DNA of 64,000 bases from Achromobacter insuavis (GTDB taxonomy: Bacteria; Pseudomonadota; Gammaproteobacteria; Burkholderiales; Burkholderiaceae_B). Below are positions 6,766 to 27,081 of this stretch, in pieces. Position 1 is the stretch's first letter. Each line of letters starts with the position of its first letter. A program made the position numbers and the translations under genes. The stretch spans positions 1 through 64,000 of the forward strand of contig NZ_CADIJR010000016.1 of the NCBI RefSeq assembly GCF_902859645.1. Direction: 5' to 3'. The notes beneath the pieces are model-generated. The model saw only the letters and a list, made by a program, of their open reading frames with translations, searched no databases and was not told the DNA's origin.

Positions 6766-7683
6766 TCAGCGCGCGGACGCGCTGCCGCCCGGCGCGGCGG
6801 GCGGCGGCTTGGCGGCCCCGCCCCCCATCAATACGAATACCCCGGCCAGGACCAGCGCGGTGCCGGCCATCTGCCAGACCGTCACGGGTTCGTGCAGGAA
6901 CCACGACGCCAGGAACAGCACCGACACCGGCCCCAGCATGCCCAGCAGCGACGCGGTCGGCGCGCCGATCAGCGCCACCGCCCACATCAGCATGAAGACG
7001 GGCACCACCGTGTTCAGGGTGGCATGGATGATCGAGTAGCCGTACACGCCCATCGGCTGGATCAGCACGGAGGCCGGATGGATCACGAAGAACTGCACGA
7101 TGCAGGCCACGCACGACACCAGCATGGCATACGCCACCAGCCGGGTGGGCCCGATGCGCTTGATCAGTTCTCCGGAGCAGATCAGGTACACAGAATAGCT
7201 GAGCGCCGAACCGAAAACGAACAAAGACCCTAACAGCACCTCGGAGGAGCCGCCGAAGCTCAGATCGTGGGCGAAAACCAGCACCACGCCGGCGTACGAC
7301 AGCGTCATCGCCAGCCATTGCCGGCGCTCGACCGGCCGCTTGAACCAGAACGCCGAGATCAGCACCACCAGCGACGGCGACAGGAACAGGATCAGCCGCT
7401 CCAGGCTGGCGGTGATGTAGCGCAGGCCGAGGAAATCCAGGAAGCTGGACAGGTAGTAGCCCAACAGGCCCAGCAGGCAGACCTGGATGCGTTCCTTCCA
7501 GGTCATGACGACGATCTCGCCGCGGGCCGCCAGGCGCGACTGATGCCATGCCACCGCCGCGAAGAACGGCATGGCGAACAGCATGCGGAAGGCGATCAGG
7601 GTGACCGCGTCGATGCCGTAGCGGTAGGTGAACTTGACGACGATGGCCTTGGCGGAAAACAGGATCGCGCCAAGCGCGGCCAT
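6766..7683 (-). CDS. EamA/DMT-family permease, 5' end at the ICE junction
   Basis: The 305-residue product shows about ten membrane segments in two repeated EamA halves, as in drug/metabolite transporters. Substrate is unknown. The protein starts abruptly within what should be the first helix (MAALGAILFSAKAIVVK) with almost no cytoplasmic leader. Read in frame upstream, the codons are TTT TTC directly before ATG, and a stop (TGA) occurs five codons before the ATG. The ATG is part of the octamer TTTTTCAT, the Tn4371-family att core, and no good ribosome site precedes it. I infer that a few native N-terminal codons and the native promoter were separated from the gene by the ICE insertion. Confidence 0.8.
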   Translation of the reverse strand: MAALGAILFSAKAIVVKFTYRYGIDAVTLIAFRMLFAMPFFAAVAWHQSRLAARGEIVVMTWKERIQVCLLGLLGYYLSSFLDFLGLRYITASLERLILFLSPSLVVLISAFWFKRPVERRQWLAMTLSYAGVVLVFAHDLSFGGSSEVLLGSLFVFGSALSYSVYLICSGELIKRIGPTRLVAYAMLVSCVACIVQFFVIHPASVLIQPMGVYGYSIIHATLNTVVPVFMLMWAVALIGAPTASLLGMLGPVSVLFLASWFLHEPVTVWQMAGTALVLAGVFVLMGGGAAKPPPAAPGGSASAR

Positions 7684-7689
7684 GAAAAA
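7682..7689 (-). other. Candidate ICE attachment site (att core TTTTTCAT)
   Basis: On the minus strand the octamer TTTTTCAT joins the EamA coding sequence to non-host sequence. Tn4371-family ICEs are reported to be flanked by this octamer, with the trbI end facing one flank. Here the trb block ends about 275 bases away, so position and sequence agree. The partner copy would be beyond the right edge of the window. Confidence 0.72.
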
Positions 7690-7964
7690 TGTCCGCTGTC
7701 AAGTCTTTTGTGAGGTCATGCAGCGGCGCAAAAGGTCTTATGGGGCAATAGGTTAGCCTAGATTCGGGCTGCGGCGCGCGCTTGCTGCATTTCTGGCTAG
7801 GTGCCACATGGGCGCTTTGCGGTGGCAAACGCAGGGGCGCCGCAGCGGGCAAGATCGCATAGCCATCTTATGCCCCGGCCTGTCGCAATCCATCCCCAGA
7901 AAGCGAAAGCGCAACCCGAGGGCTGCGCTTTCATCGTGAGTGGGTGGTGGATGCGTCCACATCG
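7690..7964. other. Terminal non-coding segment of the ICE
   Basis: These 275 bases lie between the putative att core and the last gene of the trb operon. No gene is supported. They contain short inverted repeats (GCATA/TATGC near 7855-7876, and a stem at 7905-7932), which could be integrase arm sites or structural end sequences. On average they are less GC-rich than the flanking genes. Confidence 0.5.
7905..7932 (-). terminator. Possible terminator of the trb operon
   Basis: Nine-base arms GAAAGCGCA (7905-7913) and TGCGCTTTC (7924-7932) form a perfect stem with a 10-base loop, 33 bases past the end of the DUF2274 gene. Only a short pyrimidine run follows on the minus strand, so termination is plausible but not strong. 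Confidence 0.5.
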
Positions 7965-8210
7965 TCAACCCGACTTCGGCGGTGCGGCCTTGCCCCTGCT
8001 TCCCTTTCTGAATCCCCGATCCCCCGCCATGAACGTCTCCAGCATGTGCGGGATCAACGTCGTTGCATCGACGGCCTCGCCATACGTCTGCGCGTGCAGT
8101 GCGGCGTAGGCGTCCAGGTCGGCTTTCAGGCTGGCCGGGCAGGTGAACGTCAGCTTCGTGCTACCGCTGGACGGCAACGGGCCGAGGCGGAGTTTTCGGG
8201 CGGTACTCAT
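7965..8210 (-). CDS. DUF2274 domain protein
   Basis: This 81-residue protein matches the DUF2274 family, small proteins found directly after trbI in Tn4371- and clc-like conjugative elements. The sequence is basic at the C terminus (GFRKGSRGKAAPPKSG) with no membrane segment, and its central helix-rich part (LKADLDAYAALHAQTYG) resembles a ribbon-helix-helix protein. Its ATG overlaps the stop of trbI. Function is unknown; the position at the end of the mating-pair operon suggests a role in conjugation or its control. Confidence 0.75.
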   Translation of the reverse strand: MSTARKLRLGPLPSSGSTKLTFTCPASLKADLDAYAALHAQTYGEAVDATTLIPHMLETFMAGDRGFRKGSRGKAAPPKSG

Positions 8211-9481
8211 CGCGCACCTCCAAGCTGATAGAACATGGGTTGGTAAGGACGCAACACGAGGTCGCGCGCCACGATCACCCGAACCGGCAAGCCCGGTCGT
8301 GCTGTCAGCGTCGGCTGGATGTTCATGTTGCGCCGAGTGATCTCCTGGCCGACCTGATTGATGCTGTCCTGTGCGCTGTCGCGCCCGGCGATGACGATGC
8401 GGTTGCCGTCCTGGCGGTTCTCCGGCGCGGCCAGCTCGGCGCCCACGCCCAGCAGCGTCGTCAACACGGCGCCGGCGAAGACGCGGTTCCAGTGCCAGTC
8501 CACGTCGTCTTCCAGGCCGGCGTAGCCGGCCGGGTCGGTGCCCACGAGGTTGTCGAGCGTCAGCGATGACGTGTCGGGCAGGATGACCCGGTTCCATACC
8601 ACCTGTACGCGGCTCTGCCCGTAGCTGACCTGGCTGTTGTAGCGCCCGAGGATGCGCGATCCCTGCGGGATCAGCAGGAACTTGCCCGTGGCCGTGTCAT
8701 AGACGGGCTCCGTGACGGTGGCGATCACATCGCCCGGAAGATCGGACTTGATGCCTGTGACCAGCGCCCCGGCGATCACCGTACCGGCCATCACCTGATA
8801 CGGCGACGCCGGCAGCGCCAGGTTGCCGGAATTGCGGGTTTCCGTAGAGCCGCCTTTCAGGAACGCCTCCTTCTGGTCTTGCCGGTTCTGCGTGGCGGTC
8901 GGGTCGGCGGGCTGGGCCGCCGTCGAGGCCGGCCCGGCGGCGAGCGGGTCGAAGGCTGCGAGCGCGCTTGCAGCACCCGGCGCACCCGGCGCCGCCTGCG
9001 CCACCGTTGCGGCCTGGCCTTGGCCCTGGCCGCCGGAGCGGAAGAACACCGACGAAGCCGCAGCGGCTTCCGCCTCTTTGCGCAAAGCGTCATTCGGATC
9101 GTGGCCGGGGGCCGCGTAAGCGGCTACGGCCGGCTGCTGCGAAGCGACGATGGCGGGGCCAAGATCGCCCGGCAGCGGCGGCCCCAACTCGGGCACCTTC
9201 CGCAGCTTCGAGTAGTCGGAAGGCAGGCCATCCAGCCCCTCGGACTTCGATACGCGATCCACGTTGTAAAGCTCGGTCTGTTCGCCAGTGCCGCGCCGAT
9301 GCGGCTGCAATGACCAGATCGTGGCCCCGAGCACGGCGACCGACAGGCCGCCGACGAGGACGGCCAGCGTGCGCCGGTTCAGGCGCGTGACCGGACACGG
9401 CTGGGCGCGTAGCGCCACCGCCTCGGGCGCGACCTTGCCCGCCTGCGGCGTGGTGAGGTCGGGGGTGTCGTCCTGGCTCAT
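8207..9481 (-). CDS. trbI: Conjugal transfer protein TrbI (VirB10-like)
   Basis: The 424-residue protein has a short cytoplasmic N terminus, one membrane helix (about residues 37-58), a long Pro/Ala-rich linker and a C-terminal VirB10/TrbI domain with the conserved stretches LIPQGSRILGRYNS and VGAELAAPE. VirB10-type proteins span both membranes and link the outer-membrane core of the type IV secretion channel to the ATPases. It is separated by two bases from trbG and overlaps the DUF2274 gene. Confidence 0.93.
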   Translation of the reverse strand: MSQDDTPDLTTPQAGKVAPEAVALRAQPCPVTRLNRRTLAVLVGGLSVAVLGATIWSLQPHRRGTGEQTELYNVDRVSKSEGLDGLPSDYSKLRKVPELGPPLPGDLGPAIVASQQPAVAAYAAPGHDPNDALRKEAEAAAASSVFFRSGGQGQGQAATVAQAAPGAPGAASALAAFDPLAAGPASTAAQPADPTATQNRQDQKEAFLKGGSTETRNSGNLALPASPYQVMAGTVIAGALVTGIKSDLPGDVIATVTEPVYDTATGKFLLIPQGSRILGRYNSQVSYGQSRVQVVWNRVILPDTSSLTLDNLVGTDPAGYAGLEDDVDWHWNRVFAGAVLTTLLGVGAELAAPENRQDGNRIVIAGRDSAQDSINQVGQEITRRNMNIQPTLTARPGLPVRVIVARDLVLRPYQPMFYQLGGAR

Positions 9482-11192: not shown

Positions 11193-12566
11193 TCAGGAAT
11201 CGGAATCGCGCAGACTCGGCCCCTGGCTGGAACTGCCGCCGTCGCCCCCGCGCAGCGTGTGGGCGGCGGTGGTTGCGGCATGGGTGAGTTGCTGGCGGCG
11301 ATGCAGGCGTTTGGCCCAGGCGGGTTGCTCCTGCGGCGCGGTGGAGGGCGTATCACCACCAGACGCTGGGCCGCCCGATGCGGCGGCTGTACCGCCTCCC
11401 GCCGAAGTCGTGCCTTCCTGGCGGAAAGCTGCGGCGGCACGTTCCTTCATCGAACGCGCGCCATCGGCCACCTTCTGCCCGGCTGCCTGAGCGCCTGTCT
11501 TGGCGACATTGCCGAAGCCCGCAGCGGCACCCTTGAGGCCGCCGCCGGCCGAAGCGGAACCGGCCTGGAACGCCGACCGTGCACTGCTGGCAGCCCCAGC
11601 GGCAGCCCGCGCGCCGCTGCCGGCCAGCTTGGCGGCAGCGGGCGCCATGCGCGCTCCAGCAGCTACCGCGCCGCCGACGCCCGTGGCTGCGGCGCCGACG
11701 GCAACGGCAGCGCCCGCAGCGCCCAGCGCAGCACCGGCCATCGCACCCGCGCCAAGCTGCGGCCCGCCAGACACCAGCCCGGTTGCAATGCCTGGCCCGA
11801 AGATGCCCAAGGCCAGCAGGGTCAGCGAGGCCAGCATCACGACCACGGAGTGGTCGATGGATGGCTCGGCGGGATGTACCTGAAACTCGGCGAACAGCCC
11901 CGAGCCGATGCCCACAATGACGGCGAGCACCAGCACCTTGATGCCGGACGACACCACGTTGCCCAGCACCTTTTCGGCGAGGAACGCGGTCTTGTTCCAC
12001 AGCGCGAACGGCACCAGCACGAAGCCGGCGAGCGTGGTCAGCTTGAACTCGATCAGCGTGATGAAAAGCTGGATCGCCAGCACGAAGAAGCACAGGATGA
12101 CGATCAACCACGCGAGGAACATCACGACGATGGGCGTGATGTTCACGAACACCTCGGGGAAGCCCGCCATGTTGCCGATCTGCTCAAGGATCGGCGCACC
12201 GGCGTCGATGCCGACCTTGGCCAGCCGCCCAGGGTGTAGGAAGTTCTCCATGCTCAAGGTCGAGCCGCTGGCCGTTAGGCCCAGCCCGGCGAAGGAGCGG
12301 AACAGGATGCCGGCCAGCGTGTTGAAGTTGCCGATGATGTAGGCGAAGGCACCGACGTACAGCACCTTGCGGATCAGCTTGGCGATCACGTCCTCGCCCT
12401 GGCCGACGGCATGGCCCATCGCCCAGAACAGCCCGGCGATCGTCATGTCGATGACGATCAGCGTGGCGGTCAGAAACGCCACCTCGCCATGCAGCAGTCC
12501 AAAGCCCGAGTCGATGTAGCGCGAGAAGGTATCGAGGAAGCGGTCGATGATCGTTACGTCGTTCAT
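11193..12566 (-). CDS. trbL: Conjugal transfer protein TrbL (VirB6-like)
   Basis: The 457-residue protein has at least five membrane helices in the first 270 residues, including FLAWLIVILCFFVLAIQLF, followed by a long Ala/Gly-rich low-complexity tail and a charged C terminus. TrbL/VirB6 proteins form the polytopic inner-membrane part of the mating channel. Its ATG overlaps the stop of trbK. The Ala/Gly tail is normal for Tn4371-type TrbL. Confidence 0.92.
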   Translation of the reverse strand: MNDVTIIDRFLDTFSRYIDSGFGLLHGEVAFLTATLIVIDMTIAGLFWAMGHAVGQGEDVIAKLIRKVLYVGAFAYIIGNFNTLAGILFRSFAGLGLTASGSTLSMENFLHPGRLAKVGIDAGAPILEQIGNMAGFPEVFVNITPIVVMFLAWLIVILCFFVLAIQLFITLIEFKLTTLAGFVLVPFALWNKTAFLAEKVLGNVVSSGIKVLVLAVIVGIGSGLFAEFQVHPAEPSIDHSVVVMLASLTLLALGIFGPGIATGLVSGGPQLGAGAMAGAALGAAGAAVAVGAAATGVGGAVAAGARMAPAAAKLAGSGARAAAGAASSARSAFQAGSASAGGGLKGAAAGFGNVAKTGAQAAGQKVADGARSMKERAAAAFRQEGTTSAGGGTAAASGGPASGGDTPSTAPQEQPAWAKRLHRRQQLTHAATTAAHTLRGGDGGSSSQGPSLRDSDS

Positions 12567-12874: not shown

Positions 12875-13600
12875 TCAGTGGTTGTAGAAATCGACGGCTT
12901 GCGGCGTGTACGGCGTGCCACTGCCCAGGAAGCGGCGCGTCATCTCACGTCCGCGCTCCGTGGCCGCCGCCTGCCGCGCCAGTTCCAGCGCGGCAGCGCG
13001 ATCCTGCGTGATCTGGAGCCGCTGCGACTGGATCGACTGCTTGGCCTGCAAGGCCAGCAACTGGTTCATGGCCTGCATCGCCTGCAACGCACCTTCGGCT
13101 GACTGGCTCTTGCCCACGAGGTCGGCGAGCACGCTTTCGTCTTCGCCCAGGTTCTGCGAAACCTGGGCCTGCATCCGCATCGTGGTCTGCAAGCCGTTGA
13201 GCGTGTTCTTCCATCGCTCCTGCGTGTCGCGGTACATCTGGTCGCCGCTCACCGTGGCGGCGTACTGCTCGGGATACAGGCGCTGAAACTCCCGATCCAG
13301 ATTCGTCACGTCGTAGGCCAGGCCGCGCGCCTGGTCGATCAGCCGCTGCGTGGTCGCCAGATTGGCGCGCAACTGGCCGACCACGCTGGATGGCAGGCTG
13401 GCGAGATTGCGCGCCTGGTTCATCAGCATCTGCGCTTCGTTCTGAAGCTGCTGGATCTGGTTGTTGATCTGCTCCAGCGTGCGGATCGCGGTCAGCGTGT
13501 TCTGCACGAGGTTGGTGGGATCGACCACGACCCATTGCGCATGGGCGGTGGCGGTGCAAAGCATGGCCGCGATTGCGGCGGCGACAAGACGCTTTTTCAT
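12875..13600 (-). CDS. trbJ: Conjugal transfer protein TrbJ (VirB5-like)
   Basis: The 241-residue protein has a signal peptide (ending near ATAHAQW) and long Gln/Asn-rich coiled-coil segments (IRTLEQINNQIQQLQNEAQ). TrbJ/VirB5 proteins are secreted minor pilus components involved in recipient contact. It overlaps trbE by four bases and precedes trbK by 12 bases. Confidence 0.92.
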   Translation of the reverse strand: MKKRLVAAAIAAMLCTATAHAQWVVVDPTNLVQNTLTAIRTLEQINNQIQQLQNEAQMLMNQARNLASLPSSVVGQLRANLATTQRLIDQARGLAYDVTNLDREFQRLYPEQYAATVSGDQMYRDTQERWKNTLNGLQTTMRMQAQVSQNLGEDESVLADLVGKSQSAEGALQAMQAMNQLLALQAKQSIQSQRLQITQDRAAALELARQAAATERGREMTRRFLGSGTPYTPQAVDFYNH

Positions 13601-16050
13601 GACAGGTTCTCCAGGGGTTGATCAGCGAGGGAACCCGGCGCAAGGCCGGGGAACGAGGGCAGCAGGTCGGCCGCCCAATCGAGGCCGCGATGGCGCAGCC
13701 AGGCGCCCGCGAAGCCGGGTACGCCGGCGTCCAGCAGCACGCGGTCTATGTCGCGCTGGTCTTGCGGCGTGGAAGCGCCCGCAAACGCCAGCGCGGCCGG
13801 CCCCAGGTCGAGGTCGAACAGGCGGTTGCCGAGGCGGGATTGGTAGTAGTAGTCGCGCTTGGGCTGCGCGGTGGCGACGATCTCGATCTGCCGGCTGTTG
13901 AGGCCGAAGCCTTCGTAGATCGTGCGAATCTGCGGCTCAGTCGCCTGCGGGTTCGGCAGGAAGATGCGGCTGGCGCAGCTTTCGATAATCGCGGGGGCGA
14001 TGCTCGAATCCTTGATGTCCGCGAGCGACTGCGTGGCGAAGATCACCGACACGTTTTTCTTGCGTAGCGTCTTGAGCCACTGGCGGATACGCGCGGCAAA
14101 CACCGGGTCATCGAGGAACAACCACGCTTCATCGAGGATCAGCAGCGTGGGCGATCCGTCGAAGCGTTCATCGAAGCGCGCAAAGAGGTAATGCAGCACG
14201 GCCATGACGGCGGCCTTGCTGTGCATCAGCTCCTCCATCTCGAAGCACTGCACGTCGGCCATGCCGAGCCGGTCGTGGTCAGCGTCCAGCAGCTTGCCGT
14301 GCGCACCACCGAGCACGTAGGGCGCGAGCGCCTGGCGCAGCGCGTTCGATTGCAGCAGCACCGACAGGCCGGTCATCGTGCGCTGCTCCACCGGCGCACC
14401 GGCGAGGCTTCCAAGCGCCGACCAGATAGCCGCCTTCTCGTCGGGGCCGACCGCCACGCCTTCGTGCAGCAAGCGGCCTTCGACCCATTCTGCGGCCCAG
14501 GTGCGGTAGCCCTCGCGGTCGATGCGTGCCAAGGGCTGGAAGGCGATTTCGCCATCCGTGCCCAGGTCGTAGTGTTCGCCGCCCAAGCCCAGGATCGTGG
14601 CCCGCATCGAGCGGCCCATGTCGAAGGCGAAGATGCGCGAACCGCGATAGCGACGGAACTGCATCGCCAGCGTGGCGAGCAAGACCGACTTGCCCATGCC
14701 GGTCGGGCCTGCGACCAGCGTGTGGCCCACGTCGCCGATGTGCGTCACCAGCCGGAACGGCGTCGCGCCATCGGTGCGCGTGACGATCAGCGGCGGGCCG
14801 TCGAGGTGGTCGTTCTTTTCCGGCCCCGCCCATACTGCGGACACCGGCATCATGTGTGCTAGGTTCAGCGTCGAGACGATGGGCTGGCGCACGTTGGCGT
14901 AAGCGTTGCCCGGAATGGATGACAGCCACGCATCCACGGCGTTGAGCGTTTCCGGGATGGTGACGAAGCCGCGCCCCTGGATGACCCGCTCCACCATGCG
15001 CAGCTTCTCGTCGGCTACGGCCGGGTCGGCATCGAGCACCGTCACCGTGGCGGTGAGATAGCCGAAGGCGACCTGATCGCTGCCCAGCTCCTGTAAGGCG
15101 GCATCGGCGTCGGTCGCCTTGTTGCTGGCGTCAGTATCGACCAACGGGCTTTCCTGCTGGAAGATCGTTTCGCGCAGCAGCGCGATGACGTTCTTCCTTT
15201 TTGCAAACCACTGGCGGCGCAGGCGGGTGAGTTCCTTTTCCGCCTCGGATTTGTCGAGACAGAGAAAGCGCGTACTCCAACGATATGCAAAGCCCAAGCG
15301 GTTGAGGTCGTCCAGAATCCCCGGCCAGGTCGAGGTCGGAAAACCGCGCACCGACACCACGCGCAGGTGCTGGTCGCCCAGCATGGGCGCCAGGCCACCG
15401 ACCAGCGGCGAGTCGGTCAGCAGGGCGTCGATGTGGAACGGCACTTCGGGCACACCGACGCGGTAGCGCCGCGTCGAGATGGTCGTGTGCAGGTAGGTCA
15501 GCGTCTGGCTGTCATCCAGCCAGACGATTTCCGGCATCACGCCGTCGAGCAGGTCAAAGACGCGATCCGTTTCCGCGACGAAGGCTTGCAGCCGCTCGCG
15601 CCAGTCCACGCCATTCGTCGGTGTGTTCTCGTAGAGCATCTTGGCTGCACGGGCGCGGGATTCTTCCGGCGGCAGGTAAAGCAACGTCAGGTGATAGCCG
15701 CTCTCGAAGTGATGGCCCGATTCCTCGAAGGCGGCCCGGCGTTCTTCCTCCACCACCCACGAAAGCGGCTCGGGAAACTCCGAGTGCGGATAGTCGGCCG
15801 CAGGCCGGCGCTCGGCTTCGATGAACAGCGCCCAGCCCGATCCCATGCGGCGCAGCGCGTTGTTCAACCGCGCCGACGTGGCGATCAGCTCGCCTTGCGT
15901 CGCGCTGTCGAGGTCAGGCCCGCGAAACCGGGCCGTGCGCTGGAAACTGCCGTCCTTGTTCAAGACGACGCCCGGTGCGACCAGCCCGGCCCAGGGCAGC
16001 CAGTCGGCAAGCAAGGCCGGGCGCTGGCGGTATTCGGCGAGGTTCAGCAT
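13597..16050 (-). CDS. trbE: Conjugal transfer ATPase TrbE (VirB4-like)
   Basis: The 817-residue protein is of full VirB4 length. It has the Walker A motif GPTGMGKSVLL near the middle and a Walker B region LLILDEAWLFLDD. VirB4 ATPases sit on the cytoplasmic face of the channel and energise pilus assembly and transfer. The gene follows trbD by 15 bases and overlaps trbJ. Confidence 0.95.
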   Translation of the reverse strand: MLNLAEYRQRPALLADWLPWAGLVAPGVVLNKDGSFQRTARFRGPDLDSATQGELIATSARLNNALRRMGSGWALFIEAERRPAADYPHSEFPEPLSWVVEEERRAAFEESGHHFESGYHLTLLYLPPEESRARAAKMLYENTPTNGVDWRERLQAFVAETDRVFDLLDGVMPEIVWLDDSQTLTYLHTTISTRRYRVGVPEVPFHIDALLTDSPLVGGLAPMLGDQHLRVVSVRGFPTSTWPGILDDLNRLGFAYRWSTRFLCLDKSEAEKELTRLRRQWFAKRKNVIALLRETIFQQESPLVDTDASNKATDADAALQELGSDQVAFGYLTATVTVLDADPAVADEKLRMVERVIQGRGFVTIPETLNAVDAWLSSIPGNAYANVRQPIVSTLNLAHMMPVSAVWAGPEKNDHLDGPPLIVTRTDGATPFRLVTHIGDVGHTLVAGPTGMGKSVLLATLAMQFRRYRGSRIFAFDMGRSMRATILGLGGEHYDLGTDGEIAFQPLARIDREGYRTWAAEWVEGRLLHEGVAVGPDEKAAIWSALGSLAGAPVEQRTMTGLSVLLQSNALRQALAPYVLGGAHGKLLDADHDRLGMADVQCFEMEELMHSKAAVMAVLHYLFARFDERFDGSPTLLILDEAWLFLDDPVFAARIRQWLKTLRKKNVSVIFATQSLADIKDSSIAPAIIESCASRIFLPNPQATEPQIRTIYEGFGLNSRQIEIVATAQPKRDYYYQSRLGNRLFDLDLGPAALAFAGASTPQDQRDIDRVLLDAGVPGFAGAWLRHRGLDWAADLLPSFPGLAPGSLADQPLENLS

Positions 16051-16338: not shown

Positions 16339-16718
16339 ACGACCGCCCCGCCGGAGAAGCTGAAGAACGACAGGAAGAAGCTCGAAGCGGCGAACGCGAT
16401 GGACAGACCGAATACGATCTGGATCAGCTTGCGGAACCCGCCGGACGTGTCGCCGAACGCGAGCGCGAGGCCCGTGGCGATGATGATGATGACCGCGACG
16501 ATGCGCGCCACCGGCCCCTGGATGGATTCGAGGATGGATTGCAGCGGGCCTTCCCACGGCATCGAGGAACCGGCGGCCTGCGCGGCTCCGGCCAGGAACA
16601 ACAGCAACGCGGCCAGCAGCAGCCCTTGCCCCGCAGGACGGGCCAGGCAGCGCAGCCGCGCAAGACGCAAAGCCGGATTTGCAGAAAAACGGAAAGCAGG
16701 AATGGTCATCTGCGTCAT
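16335..16718 (-). CDS. trbC: Conjugal transfer pilin TrbC (VirB2-like)
   Basis: The 127-residue product has a long basic leader, a signal sequence ending around AAQAAG and two hydrophobic segments (IVAVIIIIATGLALAFG and FGLSIAFAASSFFLSFF), the organisation of VirB2/TrbC propilins. In IncP systems this pilin is processed and cyclised; the TraF peptidase needed for that is encoded at 34850-35437. It overlaps trbB and trbD by four bases each. Confidence 0.92.
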   Translation of the reverse strand: MTQMTIPAFRFSANPALRLARLRCLARPAGQGLLLAALLLFLAGAAQAAGSSMPWEGPLQSILESIQGPVARIVAVIIIIATGLALAFGDTSGGFRKLIQIVFGLSIAFAASSFFLSFFSFSGGAVV

Positions 16719-17776
16719 GGCAGTTCTCCAAGTGAGTCAAGGGATGAGGAAGTCGCCGCAGCGGGTACGGCATCGGGGTTTGGCGACAACTCGGGAAACG
16801 GCGTGTCCAGCGCGTCCGCCTCCCAATCCGCCAATCGGTAGCCCACGCCGTCAAAGCCGACGACGCGGGCGATGCTCTCGATGCGGCGCTTGCGCCCGCG
16901 CCCGGCGATATGGATCACCACGTTGACCGCCTCGGCGATCAGCGCACGCGGCGGGTTCACCGCCACTTCGAGAATCAGTTGCTCCAGGCGCAGCAGCGCG
17001 CCGAGCGCGGAGCCGGCGTGGATCGTGGCGATACCGCCCGGATGGCCGGTGCCCCACACCTTGATGAGATCCAGCGCCTCGGCGCCGCGCACCTCGCCGA
17101 CGACGACGCGATCAGGCCGCAGGCGCATGGACGACCGCACCAGTTCGGTCATGGACACGACGCCGGCGCGCGTGCGCAGCGGCACATGGTCGCGGGCCGC
17201 GCATTGCAACTCGATGGTGTCTTCGAGCACCAGTACGCGGTCGCCCGTGGCGGCGATCTCGGCCAGCAGCGCATTGGCGAGCGTGGTCTTGCCGCTGCTC
17301 GTGGCTCCTGCGATCAGGACGTTCTGGCGCTCGCGCACGGCGCGAACGAGAAAGCCCGCCTGCTCGGCGGTCATCATTCCGTCCTCGATGTAGCGCGACA
17401 GAGGGATGACGCCGATGGCGCGCTTGCGCAGCGCGAAGGCCGGCCCCGGCGCAGCGGGCGGCAAGATGCCCTCGAAGCGTTCGCCGGTTTCGGGCAACTC
17501 GGCGGACAGCAGCGGTTGCCCGCGATGGACTTCTGCGCCAACGTGGGCCGCGACCAAGCGGATGATTCGCTCGCCGTCCGTCTCCGGCAACTCCGCGCCC
17601 ATCGGCGCGCGCCCACTGGAAAGCCGATCCACCCAAAGGGTGCGATCGGGGTTCAGCATCACCTCCACCACGTCCGGGTCTTCGAGCGCGGCGGCGATCA
17701 GCGGCCCCATCGCCGTGCGCAGCATCTGGATGCGGCGGTCGAGCGAGGTGGTGAGGGATGAAGGCGCGGCGCTCAT
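16715..17776 (-). CDS. trbB: Conjugal transfer ATPase TrbB (VirB11-like)
   Basis: The 353-residue protein is a hexameric VirB11/secretion ATPase. It shows the Walker A motif [10 protein letters not shown], the Asp box [10 protein letters not shown], Walker [16 protein letters not shown] and the His box [12 protein letters not shown]. It powers assembly of the mating channel. The start at 17776 overlaps the stop of the upstream ribbon-helix-helix gene; a longer frame beyond this point overlaps that gene. Confidence 0.95.
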
Positions 17777-18237
17777 GAGGCACGCTCCTGCGCTTGCGCG
17801 GCTGCCGCCGCGTCTTCCATCCGCATTGGGTCGGGATGCAGTTCCTCCACCACGTCGCGCACCAGGCTGCGGCCCCGCAGCAGGTGGCGGCCAAGCTGCT
17901 CGGTGAACTGCTCGAAGCGCGCCTTGCCTTGCGCGCGTGCCGCGTCTTGGTGCGCCTCGGGAACCGGAGTGCTCACGGTCAGGTAGTAGCGGATGAACAG
18001 CGCCAGCGTTTCGATGGCGATGTTCTGGTCGCGCTCCATGCGATCGGCCTGGCGCGAGAGGCGATCCAGCCGCTTGGCAATGGCCGCCTCGCGCTGGTCG
18101 GCGGCATCGGGCGACAGCCATGATGCGAGCGCCGCCGCGACGATGGACGACTTGGACACGCCTTTCTTGGCGGCCAGCTCATCGAGCCGCTTGGCGTGCT
18201 CCGGCTGGATGAACAGGTTGAGGCGATAGTGGCTCAT
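17773..18237 (-). CDS. CopG-type ribbon-helix-helix protein of the tra region
   Basis: The 154-residue protein begins with a ribbon-helix-helix motif ([26 protein letters not shown]) followed by a predicted coiled-coil (around residues 45-75) and an acidic C-terminal part. Such genes sit between traG and trbB in Tn4371-like ICEs and are probably DNA-binding regulators or relaxosome helpers. It overlaps traG and trbB by four bases each. The DNA target is not known. Confidence 0.8.
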
Positions 18238-20255
18238 AGCTCGATTCCGTCGTTGGGGTCGAGGGAAGCCAGCCGGGCGCTGCGCTGCATGGCCGGATCA
18301 AGCTGGCGAGGAAGGGGAAGCGGCAGGTCGTCGTCGTCATCGAGCAGCGCGAGGTCGGCCGTGGGAGCGGCCAGCTCGGAGTCGTAGGCGACGGTTTCGG
18401 AGAGTTCGGGCTGACGGCGCGGGCCGCCGTCGTCGGCCGAACCCAAGTTCTCCAGGCCATCAGCGGACGCGGCGGCCAGTGCAGCGGGCACGGACGGAAT
18501 CGCCAACCCGCTCCAGTCGTCGGGCCGCAATGGCGGCGCGTCGGCGTACTGCCCATCCGCCAGCGCGGGCGGTGGCAGCACGCGACGCTTGAAATTGGCG
18601 TCCGCGTAGTAGCGCAGCTTCTTCGCCTTGATCGGCGCCACGCTGGACACCATCACCACGGCCTCGTCAGGCGGAAGCTGCATGACTTCGCCCGGCGTCA
18701 GCAGCGGGCGCGCGGTTTCCTGGCGCGACACCATCAGGTGGCCCAGCCACGGCGCGAGCCGATGGCCCGCGTAGTTGCGCTGCGCGCGCAGCTCGGTAGC
18801 GGTGCCGAGCGTTTCGGAAATGCGCTTGGCCGTGCGCTCGTCGTTCGTGGCGAACGTCACGCGCACATGGCAGTTGTCCAGAATCGAATGGTTCTGGCCA
18901 TAGGCTTTGTCGATCTGGTTGAGCGACTGCGCGATGAGGAAGCTGCGGATGCCGTAGCCCGCCATGAAGGCCAGGGCCGTCTCGAAGAAGTCGAGCCGCC
19001 CCAGCGCCGGGAACTCATCGAGCATCAGCAGCAGCTTGTGGCGGCGCTGAATGCCGTCGGAGCCGTCGAGCGATTCGGTGAGGCGCCGGCCGATCTGGTT
19101 GAGGATCAGGCGAATGAGCGGCTTCGTCCGCGAAATGTCCGAAGGCGGCACCACGAGGTACAGCGATACCGGATGCTCGGCAGCGATCAGGTCAGCGATG
19201 CGCCAATCGCAACGCGAGGTGACTTCGGCCACCGTGGGATCGCGGTACAGGCCGAGGAACGACATGGCCGTGGACAGCACGCCCGAGCGTTCGTTATCGC
19301 TCTTGTTGAGGACTTCGCGCGCAGCGGATGCCACCACGGGATGTGGGCCACCACCTTCCTCGTTCACGAGGTGCGGCGTAGTCATCATCCGATGCAAGGT
19401 CAGCTCGAACGGACTGGCCGGGTCGGAGAGGAAGTTGGCGACGCCGCGCAGAGTCTTGTCTTCGCCTGCGTAGAGCACATGCAGGATGGCCCCAACCAGT
19501 AGCGCGTGCGAGGTCTTTTCCCAATGGTTGCGCTTCTCCAGCGCACCTTCGGGATCAACCAGAATGTCCGCGATGTTCTGCACGTCGCGCACCTCATGCG
19601 CGCCGCGCCGTACCTCCAGCAGCGGGTTGTAGGCCGCTGACTTCGCATCGGTCGGGTTGAACAGCAGGCAATGCGAGAAGCGCGAGCGCCAACCGGCGGT
19701 GATCTGCCAGTTCTCGCCCTTGATGTCGTGGATGACGGCCGAGGCTGGCCAGGAAAGCAGCGTCGGCACCACCAGGCCCACACCTTTGCCCGAGCGCGTG
19801 GGCGCGAAGGTCAGGACGTGTTCCGGGCCTTCATGCCGCAGGTACTGGCGGTCGTGCTGGCCGAGGAACACGCCGGCCGGCTGCGTGAGGCCAGCCTTGC
19901 GAATGTCATCCGCGTTCGCCCAGCGTGCCGAGCCGTAGGTCGTAACCAGCCGCGATTGGCGCGAGCGCCAGATCGACATACCGATGGCGACCACCACCGC
20001 CAGCAGGCCACTGCCGCCCGCGATGGCGCCGCCGGTATCGAACACGCGCGGCGCGTAGGCATCGAAGAAGAACCACCACTCGAACAGTTTCCACGGGTGG
20101 TAGATCGGTGTGCCGAGAAGATCGAACCAGGGCGAGCCAAGGCGTAGCTGGTAGCCAAGGGCTGCTGCTGTCCATTGCGTGGCGCTCCATACGCCAGCGA
20201 TCACGATGCCGAATACCACGGCGATCTGACCGAACAGCACGTTCGTCCCTTGCAT
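18234..20255 (-). CDS. traG: Type IV coupling protein TraG (VirD4-like)
   Basis: The 673-residue protein has two to three N-terminal membrane helices, the Walker A motif FAPTRSGKGVGLVVPTL and a Walker B region LLMLDEFPALGR. Coupling proteins bring the relaxase-DNA complex to the secretion channel. I chose the ATG at 20255 because GGAGG lies nine bases upstream; the open frame extends 17 codons further without a ribosome site. It is the first gene of the long traG-trb operon. Confidence 0.94.
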   Translation of the reverse strand: MQGTNVLFGQIAVVFGIVIAGVWSATQWTAAALGYQLRLGSPWFDLLGTPIYHPWKLFEWWFFFDAYAPRVFDTGGAIAGGSGLLAVVVAIGMSIWRSRQSRLVTTYGSARWANADDIRKAGLTQPAGVFLGQHDRQYLRHEGPEHVLTFAPTRSGKGVGLVVPTLLSWPASAVIHDIKGENWQITAGWRSRFSHCLLFNPTDAKSAAYNPLLEVRRGAHEVRDVQNIADILVDPEGALEKRNHWEKTSHALLVGAILHVLYAGEDKTLRGVANFLSDPASPFELTLHRMMTTPHLVNEEGGGPHPVVASAAREVLNKSDNERSGVLSTAMSFLGLYRDPTVAEVTSRCDWRIADLIAAEHPVSLYLVVPPSDISRTKPLIRLILNQIGRRLTESLDGSDGIQRRHKLLLMLDEFPALGRLDFFETALAFMAGYGIRSFLIAQSLNQIDKAYGQNHSILDNCHVRVTFATNDERTAKRISETLGTATELRAQRNYAGHRLAPWLGHLMVSRQETARPLLTPGEVMQLPPDEAVVMVSSVAPIKAKKLRYYADANFKRRVLPPPALADGQYADAPPLRPDDWSGLAIPSVPAALAAASADGLENLGSADDGGPRRQPELSETVAYDSELAAPTADLALLDDDDDLPLPLPRQLDPAMQRSARLASLDPNDGIEL

Positions 20256-20387
20256 AACCTCGCCTCCGATCACGGCACACAGAGGTGCCGCAGCACTGAG
20301 GATCAAGGCGTTCGCGCAGGTCGGTCAAAGGCCGATGTGGCGGCAATTTAGGCCCAAAAAGTCAGATTTCCTTTAGTGGCGAAAGCA

Positions 20388-20713: not shown

Positions 20714-21640
20714 CTATCGGTCGCGTGGAAGGTCTTCGGGGATGCCGAGTTCATCAGCCGAATCAATAAAATCTACTCGTTCGATAAATCGAGCCAGCAT
20801 TTCGGACGGCTCCGTATCGCGGCGCAGCAGATAGGTCATGAGCATAGTCGGCTTGCCCGCCAAGCGCCGGGCCACGACTCCCGGCTCGCGGCTGGAAGCA
20901 ATGTGCGCCTCGCCCGCCAAGCCCAATGCTAAGCCGGCGGAGACTAAAGTCATCATCACGTCGAAGGTCGCCACGCGCTGCGCGATCAGCGGCTCTTGTC
21001 CGCATGTGCGTAGGAACCGATCGACCTGGCGCGCGTGGCCTTCGCACACTGCTGGGTCGCCCAGCGCCAGCGGATGGCGCAACACCTCCTTCAGCGGGAT
21101 CTGTTTGAAGGCAAGCACCGGATGGCGGGCTGGTACCGCCACCATCAATTCGTCTTCCCATGCAGGAGTGACGATGATGCCATCACCTGCATCCTCTGCC
21201 ATCGAGAAGCCCGCGTCATACAGGTCGCTATGAAGCCCCTTGATCTGCTGATCCAAAGGCACCTCGAACAATCGGATTTCCACCTCGGGGTCCTCTTCGC
21301 GGCTGCGCGCCAGCAATGCCGGCAGGCGCGAAGGCGTGACGCCATCGGACAAGGCAATACGCAACTGGCCGCAAAAGCCGTTGGCGGCGGACTTGACACT
21401 ATCGCGGGCCTGCTCCAGCACTGTAAAGACTCGCTGAACGTGCTCCAGAAACAGCCGTCCAGCGCGGGTCAGTTGTGTGCTGCGAGTGGTGCGGACAAAC
21501 AGGCGTGCGCCGAGTTCTTCCTCCAACTCCTTGATGGTGCGAGATAACGGAGATTGGTCGATGTGCAACCGCTCGGCAGCGCGGGCAAAGTGAAGCTCCT
21601 CTGCTACAGCGAGGAAACACCGTAGATGACGAAGCTCCAC
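20714..21640 (-). CDS. LysR-family transcriptional regulator
   Basis: The 308-residue protein has an N-terminal winged helix (RHLRCFLAVAEELHFARAAERLHI) and a periplasmic-binding-protein-like effector domain. The coinducer and target are unknown. It forms a unit with the eexN-like gene and lies at the border between the conjugation backbone and the copper cargo. LysR genes are found beside traG in several Tn4371-like ICEs, so a role in controlling transfer or exclusion is plausible but unproven. Confidence 0.85.
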   Translation of the reverse strand: MELRHLRCFLAVAEELHFARAAERLHIDQSPLSRTIKELEEELGARLFVRTTRSTQLTRAGRLFLEHVQRVFTVLEQARDSVKSAANGFCGQLRIALSDGVTPSRLPALLARSREEDPEVEIRLFEVPLDQQIKGLHSDLYDAGFSMAEDAGDGIIVTPAWEDELMVAVPARHPVLAFKQIPLKEVLRHPLALGDPAVCEGHARQVDRFLRTCGQEPLIAQRVATFDVMMTLVSAGLALGLAGEAHIASSREPGVVARRLAGKPTMLMTYLLRRDTEPSEMLARFIERVDFIDSADELGIPEDLPRDR

Positions 21641-22200: not shown

Positions 22201-23127
22201 TTAGGTGCCGTTGGGAGAAAGGATGCCAAGCCACGCAACGCTCGCCAAAACCAGAACGGCTAATGTCGCCTCCGTGAACAGACTCTGCCGTAGCTTGACG
22301 ACCGCGTGTGCGTGGTTGCCTGTTCTCAATGCCGCCTCCAGACTTGGGCTCAGTCGAAACCGATTGGCTGCCGCCAGCGCGAGCATTCCTCCGAACAACA
22401 GGAGTTTTCCTACGAGCAGGCGGCCATAGAGCGTTGAGAAGAGCGGATCAAGCGATGGCCCAGCGATCAACAGGTAATTCAGGGCTCCGGTCACGACGAG
22501 TGCCGCCACGATCACAGTACCTATCCGAGCGAAACCATTGGATGTTCGGCTCAGGATCTCTACTGAGCCTTGCCCGGTATTTGGTTTGTTCGCCGCAAGC
22601 ACCAAGAACGCGATCAATGCGCCTACCCAGGCACCGGCCGCCCAGAGGTGCGTGATGTCCGAAGCGAGATGAATGTATCCGCGCACGCCGTCATCCATGG
22701 CGCCATGTCCCGCCCATGCAAGGGTCGCCAACGCCACACCACTGGAAGCGGCCATCGCTGCAAAACGCAGTGTTGAATTCATGCGCAACACTGCGATGAG
22801 CACACACGTCACTAACGCCAGGATGCGAATGCACCAGGCGATGCCCATGTGCGTGCCCGTAATGAGCATGTCGAAAACGTGCGTTGACAGCTCCGCGTAG
22901 CTTTGGGCGCCGGACATGGCCTTGGCCATGACCGTCATGCCCCACATCGACAGGACAATGCCGATGGCGGCGGATGCGCCAATGAGTACGCGATAGCGGC
23001 GCGAGATCGTCGAGGATCGCTCGTCGTTGCCCAAAGCATAGAGTCCGAACATGGCGACGCCAAACGCCGCCGCCAGGTCCAGATAAAGCGCCAGGCGCAG
23101 GACGATGGTCAACCAATCCCCGGCCAT
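22201..23127 (-). CDS. copD: Copper resistance membrane protein CopD
   Basis: This 308-residue polytopic protein shows about eight membrane helices and matches CopD/PcoD, an inner-membrane copper importer that works with periplasmic CopC. Conserved features include AWCIRILALV and GHGAMDDGVRGYIHLASDITHLWAAGAWVG-type His-rich helices, read here in shortened form. It is separated from copC by only four bases. Import of copper is thought to supply cuproproteins while the other Cop proteins detoxify. Confidence 0.88.
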   Translation of the reverse strand: MAGDWLTIVLRLALYLDLAAAFGVAMFGLYALGNDERSSTISRRYRVLIGASAAIGIVLSMWGMTVMAKAMSGAQSYAELSTHVFDMLITGTHMGIAWCIRILALVTCVLIAVLRMNSTLRFAAMAASSGVALATLAWAGHGAMDDGVRGYIHLASDITHLWAAGAWVGALIAFLVLAANKPNTGQGSVEILSRTSNGFARIGTVIVAALVVTGALNYLLIAGPSLDPLFSTLYGRLLVGKLLLFGGMLALAAANRFRLSPSLEAALRTGNHAHAVVKLRQSLFTEATLAVLVLASVAWLGILSPNGT

Positions 23128-23131
23128 GGGC

Positions 23132-23518
23132 TTACTTCACCTTGAAGGTGACGTTACCCGTGATCGGATGCGTGTCCGAGGAGACGGCACGCCATTCGAC
23201 GCGATAGTCGCCCGGCTGGAGCGCCTGTGCCGGCGTGATGACCATGGTCTTGCCGTCGCCGGCACCCGCGACGCTGGCGTTGATCTTCATCGGGCCATGG
23301 CTCGCCATTCCCGGCATGCCCGTCATGACAAGGCTTGCGGCGGAGAACTGCGGCACCAGCGTTTCGGAGAACTTCAGCTCGATGGTGGCTGGCGCGGAAA
23401 CCTGCGACTTGTCGGCCGGCGTTGAAGACACCAGCGAAGGATGCGCGAATGCGGCGGTGGCGAACAGGCCAGCAGCGATCGGCGCGACGAGCTTGGCGAT
23501 GAAATGTGAACGGGTCAT
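23132..23518 (-). CDS. copC: Periplasmic copper-binding protein CopC
   Basis: The 128-residue product has a signal peptide ending just before HPSLVSSTPAD, so that the mature protein starts with the Cu(II)-binding histidine typical of CopC. It also has the C-terminal SSDTHPITGNVTF motif and a Met/His segment (MTGMPGMASHGPM). I chose the start at 23518 because it gives the canonical signal peptide. It precedes copD directly, and the pair acts as a periplasmic carrier plus membrane transporter. Confidence 0.9.
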   Translation of the reverse strand: MTRSHFIAKLVAPIAAGLFATAAFAHPSLVSSTPADKSQVSAPATIELKFSETLVPQFSAASLVMTGMPGMASHGPMKINASVAGAGDGKTMVITPAQALQPGDYRVEWRAVSSDTHPITGNVTFKVK

Positions 23519-23659
23519 AGAAGTTTCTACCTGGATGTGTGAGGTGTGGTTTAAGAACGAAATGCCGAGATAAGGCTTGCACCTTCGCAACGGCGTGGAA
23601 CGAAAGAAACGGTTCGCTGGGCGATAGCAGACTCCTGTTGGTTCTGAAAGATGTTTCGG

Positions 23660-26140
23660 TCACAGTCGGCTCGCTCTCAGCCGCAAGGCGTTGCCCACGA
23701 CCGATGCCGAACTCAGGCTCATCGCCAATGCTGCGATCAGGGGCGACAGCAACCAGCCCGTGAGGGGATAGAGAACCCCGGCGGCGATGGGGATGCCCAG
23801 CGCGTTGTAGAGGAAGGCGAACATGAGGTTCTGCTTCATGTTGCCCACGGTACTCACCGAGAGCGTGCGAGCGACAGCAATGCCACGCAGGTCGCCCTTG
23901 ACCAGCGTGACCTGAGCGCTGTTCATCGCCACGTCGGTTCCCGTTCCCATGGCGATGCCCACGTCTGCCTTCGCCAAGGCCGGCGCGTCGTTGATGCCGT
24001 CTCCGGCCATGGCGACGATGCGGCCTTCTTTCTGCAGCCGCTCGATCAACATGAGCTTGTCCGCCGGCTTGACCTCACCATGCACCTCGTCGATGCCTAG
24101 GCGTGCACCGACGGCTTTGGCGGTGGTCTGCCCGTCCCCGGTGGCCATGATGACCCGCAGGCCCGCAGCCTTCAACGCGGCCAGGGCCTCGGGGGTGCTG
24201 CCCTTGACCGGGTCGGATACGGCGAGCAAACCCGCGAGTTGCCCGTCCACAGCCAAGTACATGACGCTGGCCCCTTCGCCGCGCAGAGTTTCGGCCTGGG
24301 GTACGAGCGGTTCCACCGATACGCCAGACTGTTCCATCAGCACTGTGTTGCCCAACGCCAGTTGCCGGTGCTCAACCTTTCCGCGCACGCCGATGCCGGT
24401 TCCCGATTCAAAGCTCTGAGGCTTCACGAGTTGGAGGCCCTGGGCACGCGCGGCCTGCACGATGGCGTCGGCCAGGGGGTGTTCACTGCCCTGGTCCAGG
24501 CTGGCCGCAAGACGCAGCACCTCATCGTTCGTAAAGCCGCGTGCTGCGACGACCTGATCGAAAGCAGGTCGGCCTTCGGTCAGGGTTCCTGTCTTGTCGA
24601 TGACGAGGGTATCGACCTTGCGAAGATTCTCGATCGCCGCGGCATCGCGGAACAACACGCCCTGCGTGGCGCCACGGCCCGTTGCGACCATGATCGACAT
24701 CGGCGTGGCCAGACCCAGCGCGCACGGGCAGGCGATGATCAGGACGGCCACCGCATTGATCAGTCCATAGACCCAGGTGGGCTGTGGCCCGAAGAATCCC
24801 CATACAAAGAGCGTCGTGACCGCAATGGCGACGACGGCCATCACGAAGTAGCCGGCAACGACATCGGCCATGCGTTGCATCGGTGCCTTGGAACGCTGCG
24901 CCTGGGCGACCATCTGGACGATCTGCGATAGAACGGTGTCCGAGCCGATCCGCTCCGAACGCATGACCAGCGCGCCGTTGGTGTTGAGTGTGGCCCCGAT
25001 GACCTTGTCGCCCGCGCGCTTGCTGACGGGCAGCGGTTCGCCGGTCAGCATGGATTCGTCAATCGAGCTGCTGCCCTCGTGCACGATGCCATCCACCGGC
25101 ACCTTCTCGCCGGGTCGGATGCGCAGCAGGTCGCCGACGTGCACATGGCTGAGCGGCACGTCTTCCTCGCTGCCGTCCGCATTGATGCGCCGCGCGGTCT
25201 TGGGCGCCAGCCCCAGCAGCGACTTGATAGCCGCCGAAGTCTGGGAGCGGGCCTTGAGTTCCAGCACCTGGCCGAGCAGTGTCAGCGAGATGATGACGGC
25301 GGCGGCCTCGAAATACACGCCGACCCGTCCCATGGACATGAAGGAGGCTGGAAACACTTCCGGCGCAACGGTTGCCACGACGCTGTAGATGAATGCCGCA
25401 CCCGTTCCCAGGCCGATCAGTGTCCACATGTTCGGGCTGCGGTTGACCACGGACAGCCAGCCGCGGGAGAAGAAGGGCCAGCCGGCCCACAGCACGATCG
25501 GCAACGACAGCACCAACTCGACCCAGCTCTGCGTAGCCATGTCCATCAGGTGCAGCCGCTCGCCCAGCATCGCCAGCGCCAGGACCACGAGCGTCAACGG
25601 CAAGGTCCACCAGAAGCGACGCGAGAAGTCACGCAACTCCGGGTTGTCGTCGTCGAGGTCGGGCAGCAGGGGCTCCAGCGTCATCCCGCACTTGGGGCAG
25701 GTTCCCGGATGATCCTGGCGGATCTCCGGGTGCATCGGGCAGGTGTAGATCGTTCCGGGTGCGGTTGGCGATGCCGCCGGGGCCGGTGAAACTGCGGTGC
25801 TGGCATGGTGATGCGGCGCATGGCCGCTGCCTGTGCCTATGCCCGCGCCACCGCTGGCATATCGCGCCGGATCGGTGTCGAATTTGGCCTTGCATCCGGT
25901 GCTGCAAAACAAGTACGTGTTCCCCAAGTGCGTGGAGCGGTGCTCCGACGCCGCCGTGACCGCCATGCCACACACCGGATCGCGCGTCGCGGCATCGGGC
26001 TGCGAGTGGCTTGAGGACCCGCCCGCGTCGTCACTGCCGGCATGGCTGGCGTGATGGTGGTGCGTATGCGGGCCGGACGTTGTGGCACCCGCCGCCATGC
26101 CTGCGTGCTCATGTCCTGAAGACTTGCTGGGTGAATTCAT
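23660..26140 (-). CDS. copF: Copper-exporting P1B-type ATPase with YHS and heavy-metal-binding domains
   Basis: The 826-residue ATPase has a His-rich N terminus, a YHS domain (DPVCGMAV, residues about 54-95), a zinc-ribbon-like heavy-metal-binding domain ([10 protein letters not shown] then CPKCGM, about 130-160), eight membrane helices with the CPC metal site ([11 protein letters not shown]), TGEP and the phosphorylation motif DKTGTLTEG. It lacks a classical CxxC HMA domain. It exports cytoplasmic Cu(I). GGAGG lies about 13 bases before the ATG. It sits between the DUF2933 gene and copC in the copper operon. The YHS-plus-HMBD layout resembles CopF/silver-type ATPases. Confidence 0.92.
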
Positions 26141-26252
26141 AGTGACAAGTGCCCTCCGCCGTTAACCGTTGGTGTCTGGTGATCGCAGCAGGCCGCAGGC
26201 GCGCAAGGAGACAAGCGCGGCGTCGCGTGCTCGCACGGTGCGAGCACGCGAC

Positions 26253-26525
26253 TCATTGCTTCTGCTCCTTGGCGGGTGCGGCACCTTCCTCACCCTGACG
26301 CGCGGCATGATCGTGTCCGCCGTGGCCGTGACCACGGTGCATGAACAGGTGCATCAGCGGACAAGCCGCCAGCAGCAGGAAGGGGAGATAGCCGGCAACA
26401 TGTGCCGTGTGCTCCTTGAGCAGGAAATACGCGGCGACAGCGGCGATGATGAGGAACGCCACGCCGTAGCGCGATCGCCAGAACCGGGGACGATCGCTGG
26501 GGGTCTGTGTGTGCTGATGCTGCAT
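26253..26525 (-). CDS. DUF2933 domain membrane protein
   Basis: This 90-residue protein matches the DUF2933 family of small membrane proteins found next to copper and heavy-metal efflux genes. It has two hydrophobic segments (VAFLIIAAVAAYFLL and LPFLLLAACPLMHLFM) and a His-rich loop (HRGHGHGGHDHAA) before a polar tail. The histidines suggest metal binding. It lies between the DUF411 gene and the ATPase, about 110 bases from the latter. No biochemical role is established. Confidence 0.78.
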   Translation of the reverse strand: MQHQHTQTPSDRPRFWRSRYGVAFLIIAAVAAYFLLKEHTAHVAGYLPFLLLAACPLMHLFMHRGHGHGGHDHAARQGEEGAAPAKEQKQ

Positions 26526-26558
26526 GGCATATCTCCACGGAAAAGGGTTGATGGATGG

Positions 26559-27044
26559 TCAGCGATGCGACTGATAGACCGTGCTACTACCGTTTTTCCC
26601 GATCAGCAGCACGTCGTAGGCGTCCTTGCGTCCACCATAGGCCGGACCATCCATGCCGGGCGAACCGACCGGCATGCCCGGCGCCGCGAGGCCGATGGCC
26701 TGCGGGGCTTCGCGCAGCAAGCGTTGAATGTCCGAGGCAGGCACATGACCCTCGATGGCATAGCCGCCGATCTGCGCCGTGTGGCACGAACCGTACTTCT
26801 GCGGGATGCCCAGCCGCGTGCGCGCTGCCGTGTTCCCGGTGTCAAGAACCTGCACATCGAAGCCTGCGCCTTGCAGGTGTGAGACCCAGTCCTTGCAGCA
26901 ACCGCAGCTCGGGTCCTTCCACACCTTGGCGATCGGTCGGCTCTGCGCCAGGCTCGGTCCTGCGAGTGCCATCACCAACAAGCCAGCGATCAATGCTTGG
27001 CGTCTCGGCACTTTGCCCTGGCTTCTGTCGTAGTGCATGTTCAT
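26559..27044 (-). CDS. copG: CopG (DUF411) periplasmic copper protein
   Basis: The 161-residue product has an N-terminal RR-containing signal (PRRQALIAGLLV) and a thioredoxin-like DUF411 domain. The cysteines in SCGCCKDW and in GSCHTA match those that bind a tetranuclear copper cluster in CopG proteins. The protein is thought to support periplasmic copper redox handling with the multicopper oxidase. It is placed between copB and the DUF2933 gene, as in other cop clusters. Confidence 0.85.
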   Translation of the reverse strand: MNMHYDRSQGKVPRRQALIAGLLVMALAGPSLAQSRPIAKVWKDPSCGCCKDWVSHLQGAGFDVQVLDTGNTAARTRLGIPQKYGSCHTAQIGGYAIEGHVPASDIQRLLREAPQAIGLAAPGMPVGSPGMDGPAYGGRKDAYDVLLIGKNGSSTVYQSHR

Positions 27045-27081
27045 AGATTGCCTCTCATCAGATGATCAAACCCACAAGGTT

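Follow-up and report, generated by a model that had tools for sequence, protein, structure and literature searches.

A Tn4371-type integrative and conjugative element inside the 5' end of an EamA coding sequence of Achromobacter insuavis, and the GC-rich and T-run sites of its relatives

Introduction

Integrative and conjugative elements (ICEs) of the Tn4371 family are described as sharing the attachment core TTTTTCAT, a tyrosine integrase, TraG and Trb transfer genes and a set of maintenance genes, and as residing at 'various locations' between direct repeats; the main text of that description mentions neither terminator nor hairpin, stem or intergenic (PMC2789088). Here we describe an element of this type in Achromobacter insuavis, together with the insertion sites of its relatives. 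The window, by which we mean the whole stretch of DNA analysed, comprises 64,000 nucleotides, bases 1-64000 of contig NZ_CADIJR010000016.1 (C16, 94,998 bp), in a draft genome of 6.8 Mb and 199 contigs. As far as the published sections describe the family, the present ICE is like it in its core, its tyrosine integrase, its TraG and Trb proteins and its maintenance genes, and differs from it in a cargo of metal and copper genes and in its target, the 5' coding end of a gene for an EamA-family transporter.

Other accounts place ICEKKS102Tn4677, whose core is GATTTTAAG, and members inserted at tRNA-Leu in the same ICE family, in the portions of these articles that deal with them (PMC11448139; PMC9960961); the family assignment is shared with our element, whereas the core differs from TTTTTCAT. 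For a member in P. aeruginosa, the relevant part of its report gives a position between exoY and hcnA and TTTTTTGT as the sequence at each end (PMC6123621). No report tying Tn4371 integration to terminators was found in the open-licence PMC literature, for which the queries were partly broad; the two papers given by the most direct query each use the word terminator once, in an unrelated sense, and the available portions of two further articles contain nothing on insertion sites (PMC3384475) and nothing on terminators (PMC8704644). Insertion beside terminators is described for bacterial class C group II introns, which, in the part of the article that concerns us, enter directly after Rho-independent terminators and so spare genes (PMC8919778); the comparison is one of how things work, limited to terminator-adjacent insertion, these introns not being tyrosine-integrase ICEs. 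Tn916, in the relevant section of its description, possesses a terminator of its own that insulates the element's genes from host promoters (PMC11658703), whereas in the elements treated here the terminator, where present, belongs to the host and its insulating effect is presumed.

The insertion junction

The octamer TTTTTCAT occupies 7682-7689 on the minus strand and overlaps the ATG of the EamA gene (7683-7681), next to the trbI/DUF2274 end of the ICE, as the preliminary description of this DNA had noticed, and a further copy of identical orientation, which that description had proposed to look for at the integrase end, is indeed present beyond the window, at 74429-74436 of the contig. The presence of the octamer alone is weak evidence, because it is rare neither in the window (2 copies against 0.46 expected) nor in the genome (215 against 24 for the reversed control pattern); a candidate explanation for the excess, probably valid in part, is that many genes start with the complement of the octamer, ATGAAAAA. 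Judged by the aligned relatives, it is the homology breakpoint, rather than the octamer itself, that lifts the junction above chance. A search with the EamA protein gave 48 loci, of which 39, from Achromobacter and Bordetella (L011-L049), were taken as element-free, the remaining nine being distant and excluded from the empty-site comparison, and homology blocks were counted only if longer than 150 bp. All 39 element-free relatives carry other DNA upstream of EamA, and in every one of them the block on the left breaks off at 7682-7696 (at 7682-7690 in 38). Homology resumes past the window, at 74429-74610 of the contig; the right block begins at 74429-74440 in 15 loci and at most 181 nt further out in the other 24, and the DNA of the relatives left unaligned between the two blocks amounts to at most 205 nt. 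At the core, the blocks of A. dolens (L011, about 95% identical) have nine bases in common. The matching breakpoints and the direct cores therefore delimit an element at 7690-74428 of the contig, 66,739 bp between the cores, of which 7690-64000 fall in the window. On this sequence evidence we regard as confirmed what had been proposed from the window, namely a junction of the host chromosome with a Tn4371-type ICE inside the 5' end of the EamA gene; the chromosome is that of an Achromobacter and the ICE measures 66.7 kb.

The ends themselves are of a recurrent kind. The terminal sequence GACTTGACAGCGGACA abuts the core at 7690-7705 (minus strand), and CTTGACAGCGGACA, which stands before the core in other left ends, adjoins it in 22 of 30 left-end loci, the present element among them. 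After eight loci lacking the end motif and four more lacking an integrase on the same contig had been set aside, 18 pairs of ends remained, one contig each and including the present ICE, and all 18 have an identical 8-bp core at both ends.

What remains of the EamA gene next to the core (6766-7683, minus strand; PF00892, E=1.2e-31) starts at native codon 22, and the supposition that the insertion cut it from its native start is borne out by its relatives: in 36 of the 39 an in-frame ATG lies 63 nt, or 21 codons, further upstream, and in 37 a TAAAATCATCGC stretch directly precedes that upstream ATG. The missing N-terminal 21 residues, MNRIAKLLPVSRPSSRAAGFF, the TAAAATCATCGC stretch and with them the promoter region of the gene are now found at the far, integrase end of the element. 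The octamer belongs to the host gene, in which it forms native codons 20-22 (F-F-M), and an exact TTTTTCAT stands at the corresponding position in only four of the 39 relatives, the other 35 therefore being without an exact core. As also noted beforehand, the truncated protein begins within its first hydrophobic stretch; a stop codon (TGA) precedes the ATG in frame at a distance of six codons, and no strong Shine-Dalgarno sequence was seen by eye before that ATG. A TAAAAT hexamer six bases before the native ATG suggests a leaderless EamA promoter, a region that, by eye, reads toward int through a leader of 24 codons. The transporter may thereby have been altered in function.

Insertion sites of related elements

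It had further been proposed that the junction defines the insertion target; this stands for the EamA site in the present strain, whereas related elements use many sites, mostly T-runs of terminators, and EamA is atypical among them. The integrase described here has the domains PF00589 and PF13356, as fits the family, and integrases 60-100% identical to it are present in many genomes and plasmids. The search covered overlapping sets of genomes from the genus (43), the family (268), the order (399), a second family (399) and the class (369). Integrases of at least 76% identity numbered 95, the present one and another from its own genome among them, and for each of these copies the host sequence adjoining the integrase end was read. 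Three integrases were left out (G129, 80%, at a contig edge; G054, 74%, partial; L069, a 65% fragment), one site lacking a T-run of at least four was retained and scored as a failure (L106), and the junctions of L082, L120, L154 and L159 were placed by hand after the pattern search had missed or misplaced them. By 'terminator' we mean, throughout this survey, a predicted hairpin followed by a T-run; the strict test required a stem of at least 5, a loop of 3-10 and an end 0-1 nt before the T-run, and control sites were T-runs of the form T5-8[CT]?[AG]T.

Most of the 95 copies show the same layout at the integrase end, a host hairpin, a T-run and then the element's TTTCA..ATGACTCCAG, with int beyond the junction on the same strand. 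A hairpin directly precedes the T-run in 70/95 by the strict test (68/93 after clustering) and in 77/95 by the relaxed one. Among controls, the strict test was passed by 21/67 T-runs in 400 kb of the strain's contig C1, by 37/189 in L011-L058 and by 5/35 in the same host flanks (Fisher p against 68/93 of 1.8e-7, 2.7e-18 and 2.8e-9, respectively), and the relaxed test by 21/67, 43/189 and 6/35; dinucleotide shuffles of the junction flanks passed the strict test in 200 of 1900 cases. Predicted intrinsic terminators are thus commoner at the related copies than at comparable T-runs. A frame of at least 100 codons on the same strand ends no more than 150 nt upstream of the T-run in 69/95 sites, at a median of 54 nt. 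The control, for which the other strand was taken at the distal end of each stretch, gave 25/72, 23 of the 95 stretches being too short for it. At least five GC occur among the last six bases before the T-run in 84/95 sites and in 96/291 controls, which is the strongest signal of the survey. The genes upstream, identified by eye, presumably include secF, which precedes the genome's second copy, yidC, dcd and that of a fumarase. In the sampled genomes it is therefore shown statistically that the sites of this integrase clade consist of a core TTTTT(C/T)(A/G)T preceded by GC-rich bases, in about three quarters of them the T-run of a hairpin resembling a host intrinsic terminator, and the sequences suggest that related elements land mostly on terminator T-runs at gene ends, to which the EamA insertion would be an exception.

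The second Tn4371-type integrase of the genome (G000:C13:6238-7431; L070), 86% identical to the first, was seen behind a strong terminator-like hairpin, whose fold has a z of -3.27 relative to shuffles.

More distant integrases use a different target. Among 21 full integrases 60-70% identical, 18 were found by pattern search to have the core GATTTT(A/G)AG in tRNA-Leu-like sequence, a label that rests on sequence recognised by eye and on the published core GATTTTAAG, not on a program; ARAGORN reported an intact tRNA in none of 12 loci of this clade, as would be expected if the tRNA gene is split by the insertion. The finding agrees with the published core of ICEKKS102Tn4677, as given in the sections cited above. 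In a tree of 77 distinct integrases (60 with T-run targets, 14 with tRNA-Leu and three unlabelled) the target type changes once, and a single change was recovered in 100% of 200 bootstrap trees. Three of 92 full integrases have no target label, namely L121, whose site is tRNA-like by eye, L228 and L241. The last two belong to the tRNA-Leu clade and have the GATTTT(A/G)AG core, with no tRNA-like flank recognisable by eye; they are possibly at secondary sites of that clade. The targets of both clades consist of GC-rich bases and then Ts, which possibly forms a bridge between the two target types.

Interpretation of the site preference

We consider it very probable that the ICE sits between direct TTTTTCAT cores in codons 20-22 of EamA and belongs to a clade that targets GC-rich/T-run sites, the presumed steps of the process included. 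The tyrosine integrase would recognise double-stranded DNA made up of a GC-rich stretch and then a T-run, a description that in GC-rich genomes should fit terminators mainly. Such sites would be harmless landing places, at which the host terminator may shield int from host transcription. The EamA codons R-A-A-G-F-F-M (..GCGGCCGG-TTTTTT-CATG) would happen to match the same motif, which would be why the element landed inside a gene. There, the EamA promoter would stand upstream of int, separated from it by no more than a poor hairpin, and the shortened EamA, starting at an internal Met, would depend on read-through from the trb end. A broader reading, which we hold to be moderately probable, makes the clade a general terminator-targeting ICE lineage, spread over many genes and species, with int insulated by the host terminator and a single change separating it from the tRNA-Leu target; EamA would then be a misfire at a coding look-alike that placed int under a host promoter.

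Several results weigh against so simple a terminator rule. The EamA copy lies within coding sequence and not at an intrinsic terminator: by the strict test its site has no hairpin, by the relaxed test it has one solely by way of a 20-nt loop, and it folds no better than shuffles (z -0.03); although a looser consensus scan flags it as terminator-like, 0.5 hits are expected by chance in the stretch scanned. Elements with an identical integrase occupy four other sites, of which two are strict hairpins (L115, L125) and two, at a GC-rich repeat (L074, L075), fail even the relaxed test, as do 18 of the 95 genome sites altogether. Plasmids are weaker still: 19 records were read of the 116 with a match, picked from the best and from evenly spread rows, and in their 13 distinct sites a hairpin was found in 6/13 by the strict and 8/13 by the relaxed test (p 0.055 and 0.14 against the genome set), several of these sites not being terminators by eye. 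Consensus scans gave no promoter match at either end of the element, and effects on expression remain putative.

The hairpin excess has also to be read against base composition. Where the T-run is preceded by GC-rich bases, a hairpin is present in 66/84 sites and in 54/96 pooled controls (p 0.0016). In the strain's own contig C1 the same conditional share is 20/27, practically equal to that of the sites, and therefore recognition of a hairpin is not established. Most of the hairpin signal is accounted for by the GC-rich bases that precede the T-run, and a motif of a GC-rich stretch plus a T-run is better supported than hairpin recognition.

The strongest competitor of targeting is selection. 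Any T-run core might be used, insertions within genes being subsequently lost and the survivors standing behind terminators; we regard this as possible, though clearly less probable than targeting. The smaller hairpin share on plasmids, whose genes are maybe more dispensable, would fit it, and insertions at or in genes do occur, as at EamA and, by eye, at a gene start in L128. Against it, hairpins accompany only 19/46 intergenic T-runs of C1 by either test (p 3.4e-4 against 70/95 and 5.2e-6 against 77/95), intergenic position having been called in this one genome with a rough GC3 gene caller; nor does the loss of gene-breaking insertions obviously predict the enrichment of GC-rich bases before the T-run.

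Recognition of structure is a further alternative. Integron integrases use folded sites, and the present integrase might likewise read an extruded or single-stranded hairpin with its T-run. The excess of hairpins beyond GC content in the pooled controls speaks for this, as does the position of the stem, which ends 0-1 nt before the T-run, a shift of the test by 5 nt upstream reducing the count from 70 to 15/95, though terminators alone would show that. The conditional share in C1, the EamA site with no convincing hairpin, the sites that fail the relaxed test and the ICE's own end, which by eye has no such hairpin beside the core, all speak against it, and we judge it improbable. That the junction is a coincidence or an assembly artefact, with a chance octamer at the EamA ATG and a misassembly or ordinary gene order around it, is hardly credible: the octamer is common and the draft fragmented, but homology resumes on the same contig at the second octamer, where all 39 relatives are continuous, and the end sequences of the element recur in other genomes.

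The EamA junction thus marks the insertion of a familiar type of element in an uncommon location, and the wider target rule is statistical, not experimental. If the targeting of GC-rich/T-run sites is true, the Tn4371 family, a carrier of genes for degradation and resistance, would have a simple landing rule, a GC-rich stretch plus a T-run and usually a terminator, that would explain the 'various locations' of its published members, as worded in the main text of their description (PMC2789088), and make insertion sites predictable. The way in which an integrated element protects its genes from host transcription would become a testable question. The EamA case is an exception provided by nature in which the two components of the rule, a T-run with GC-rich bases and a real terminator, come apart.

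Some minor features of the sites were recorded besides. A GC-rich repeat (..CCCCCTCGGGGGGCAGCG..) similar to that at L074 and L075 was seen by eye in or beside these two and L094, L102 and L134 at the integrase end, and also in or beside the left ends of L201, L207, L213 and L219. Seven plasmid records (L245, L248, L249, L252-L255) have one common junction sequence, annotated behind a gene for an Ig-like-domain protein in L245, L249, L253 and L254, and probably represent one inherited insertion. An inverted repeat GCGGCC..GGCCGC around attB was considered as a general feature and discarded, not being general by eye in the other 17 paired sites. A promoter across the circular junction was likewise rejected: TTGACA adjoins the core at the trb end, and no -10-like hexamer was seen by eye at 16-18 nt on the integrase side.

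Gene content of the element

The backbone is of the Tn4371 type, as judged by its gene content, its end repeats and the published description of the family, and the domain matches of its Trb, TraG and DUF2274 proteins uphold the earlier assignment. Reading inward from the core, the DUF2274 gene (7965-8210; PF10038, E=1.4e-23) is the last gene of the ICE at the trb end, followed on the same, minus strand, to which all genes of the window given below with a domain accession belong, by trbI (8207-9481; PF03743, E=4.6e-61), trbL (11193-12566; PF04610, E=1.2e-51), trbE (13597-16050; PF03135, E=2.6e-10), trbB (16715-18121; TIGR02782, E=8.7e-119, above the cut-off) and the gene of the coupling protein TraG (18234-20306; PF02534, E=2.3e-103). 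Further on are a DUF3363 protein (32419-34776; PF11843, E=6.8e-151), which we take to be the likely relaxase, a traF-like peptidase (34850-35692; TIGR02771, E=2.3e-21, with a score of 76.1 below the cut-off of 100.25) and a parB-type gene (44049-46223; PF02195, E=1.5e-6, just above the cut-off); RepA and ParA were not identified among the genes of the element. Between traG and the DUF3363 gene lies a LysR-type regulator (20714-21640; PF00126, PF03466), and traR of the Tn4371 family is of the LysR type in the portion of the literature that describes it (PMC11448139). The tyrosine integrase gene (73054-74250 of the contig; PF00589, PF13356) is transcribed inward. This set of maintenance and transfer genes resembles that of the Tn4371 family, with which the 8-bp direct repeat TTTTTCAT at both ends also agrees, and the published primers RE1 (GCATGGAAGACTTGACAG) and intFor1 (TTTCATTTCACCATGACTCCAG) match by eye the end sequences of surveyed relatives (L212, L060).

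The metal cargo comprises CopD, a multicopper oxidase, two P-type ATPases, a cation efflux protein, an RND pump and a heavy-metal response regulator, and is located at 22201-30937 and 42243-61116 of the window and at 4700-11000 of L009; mercury- and arsenic-type genes were seen, by eye only, further to the right. Just past the stop of the DUF2274 gene is an inverted repeat with arms of 13 nt (7905-7932), terminator-like and without a long T-run. This palindrome seems to be conserved, since several further left ends show opposite-strand matches at query 29-61.
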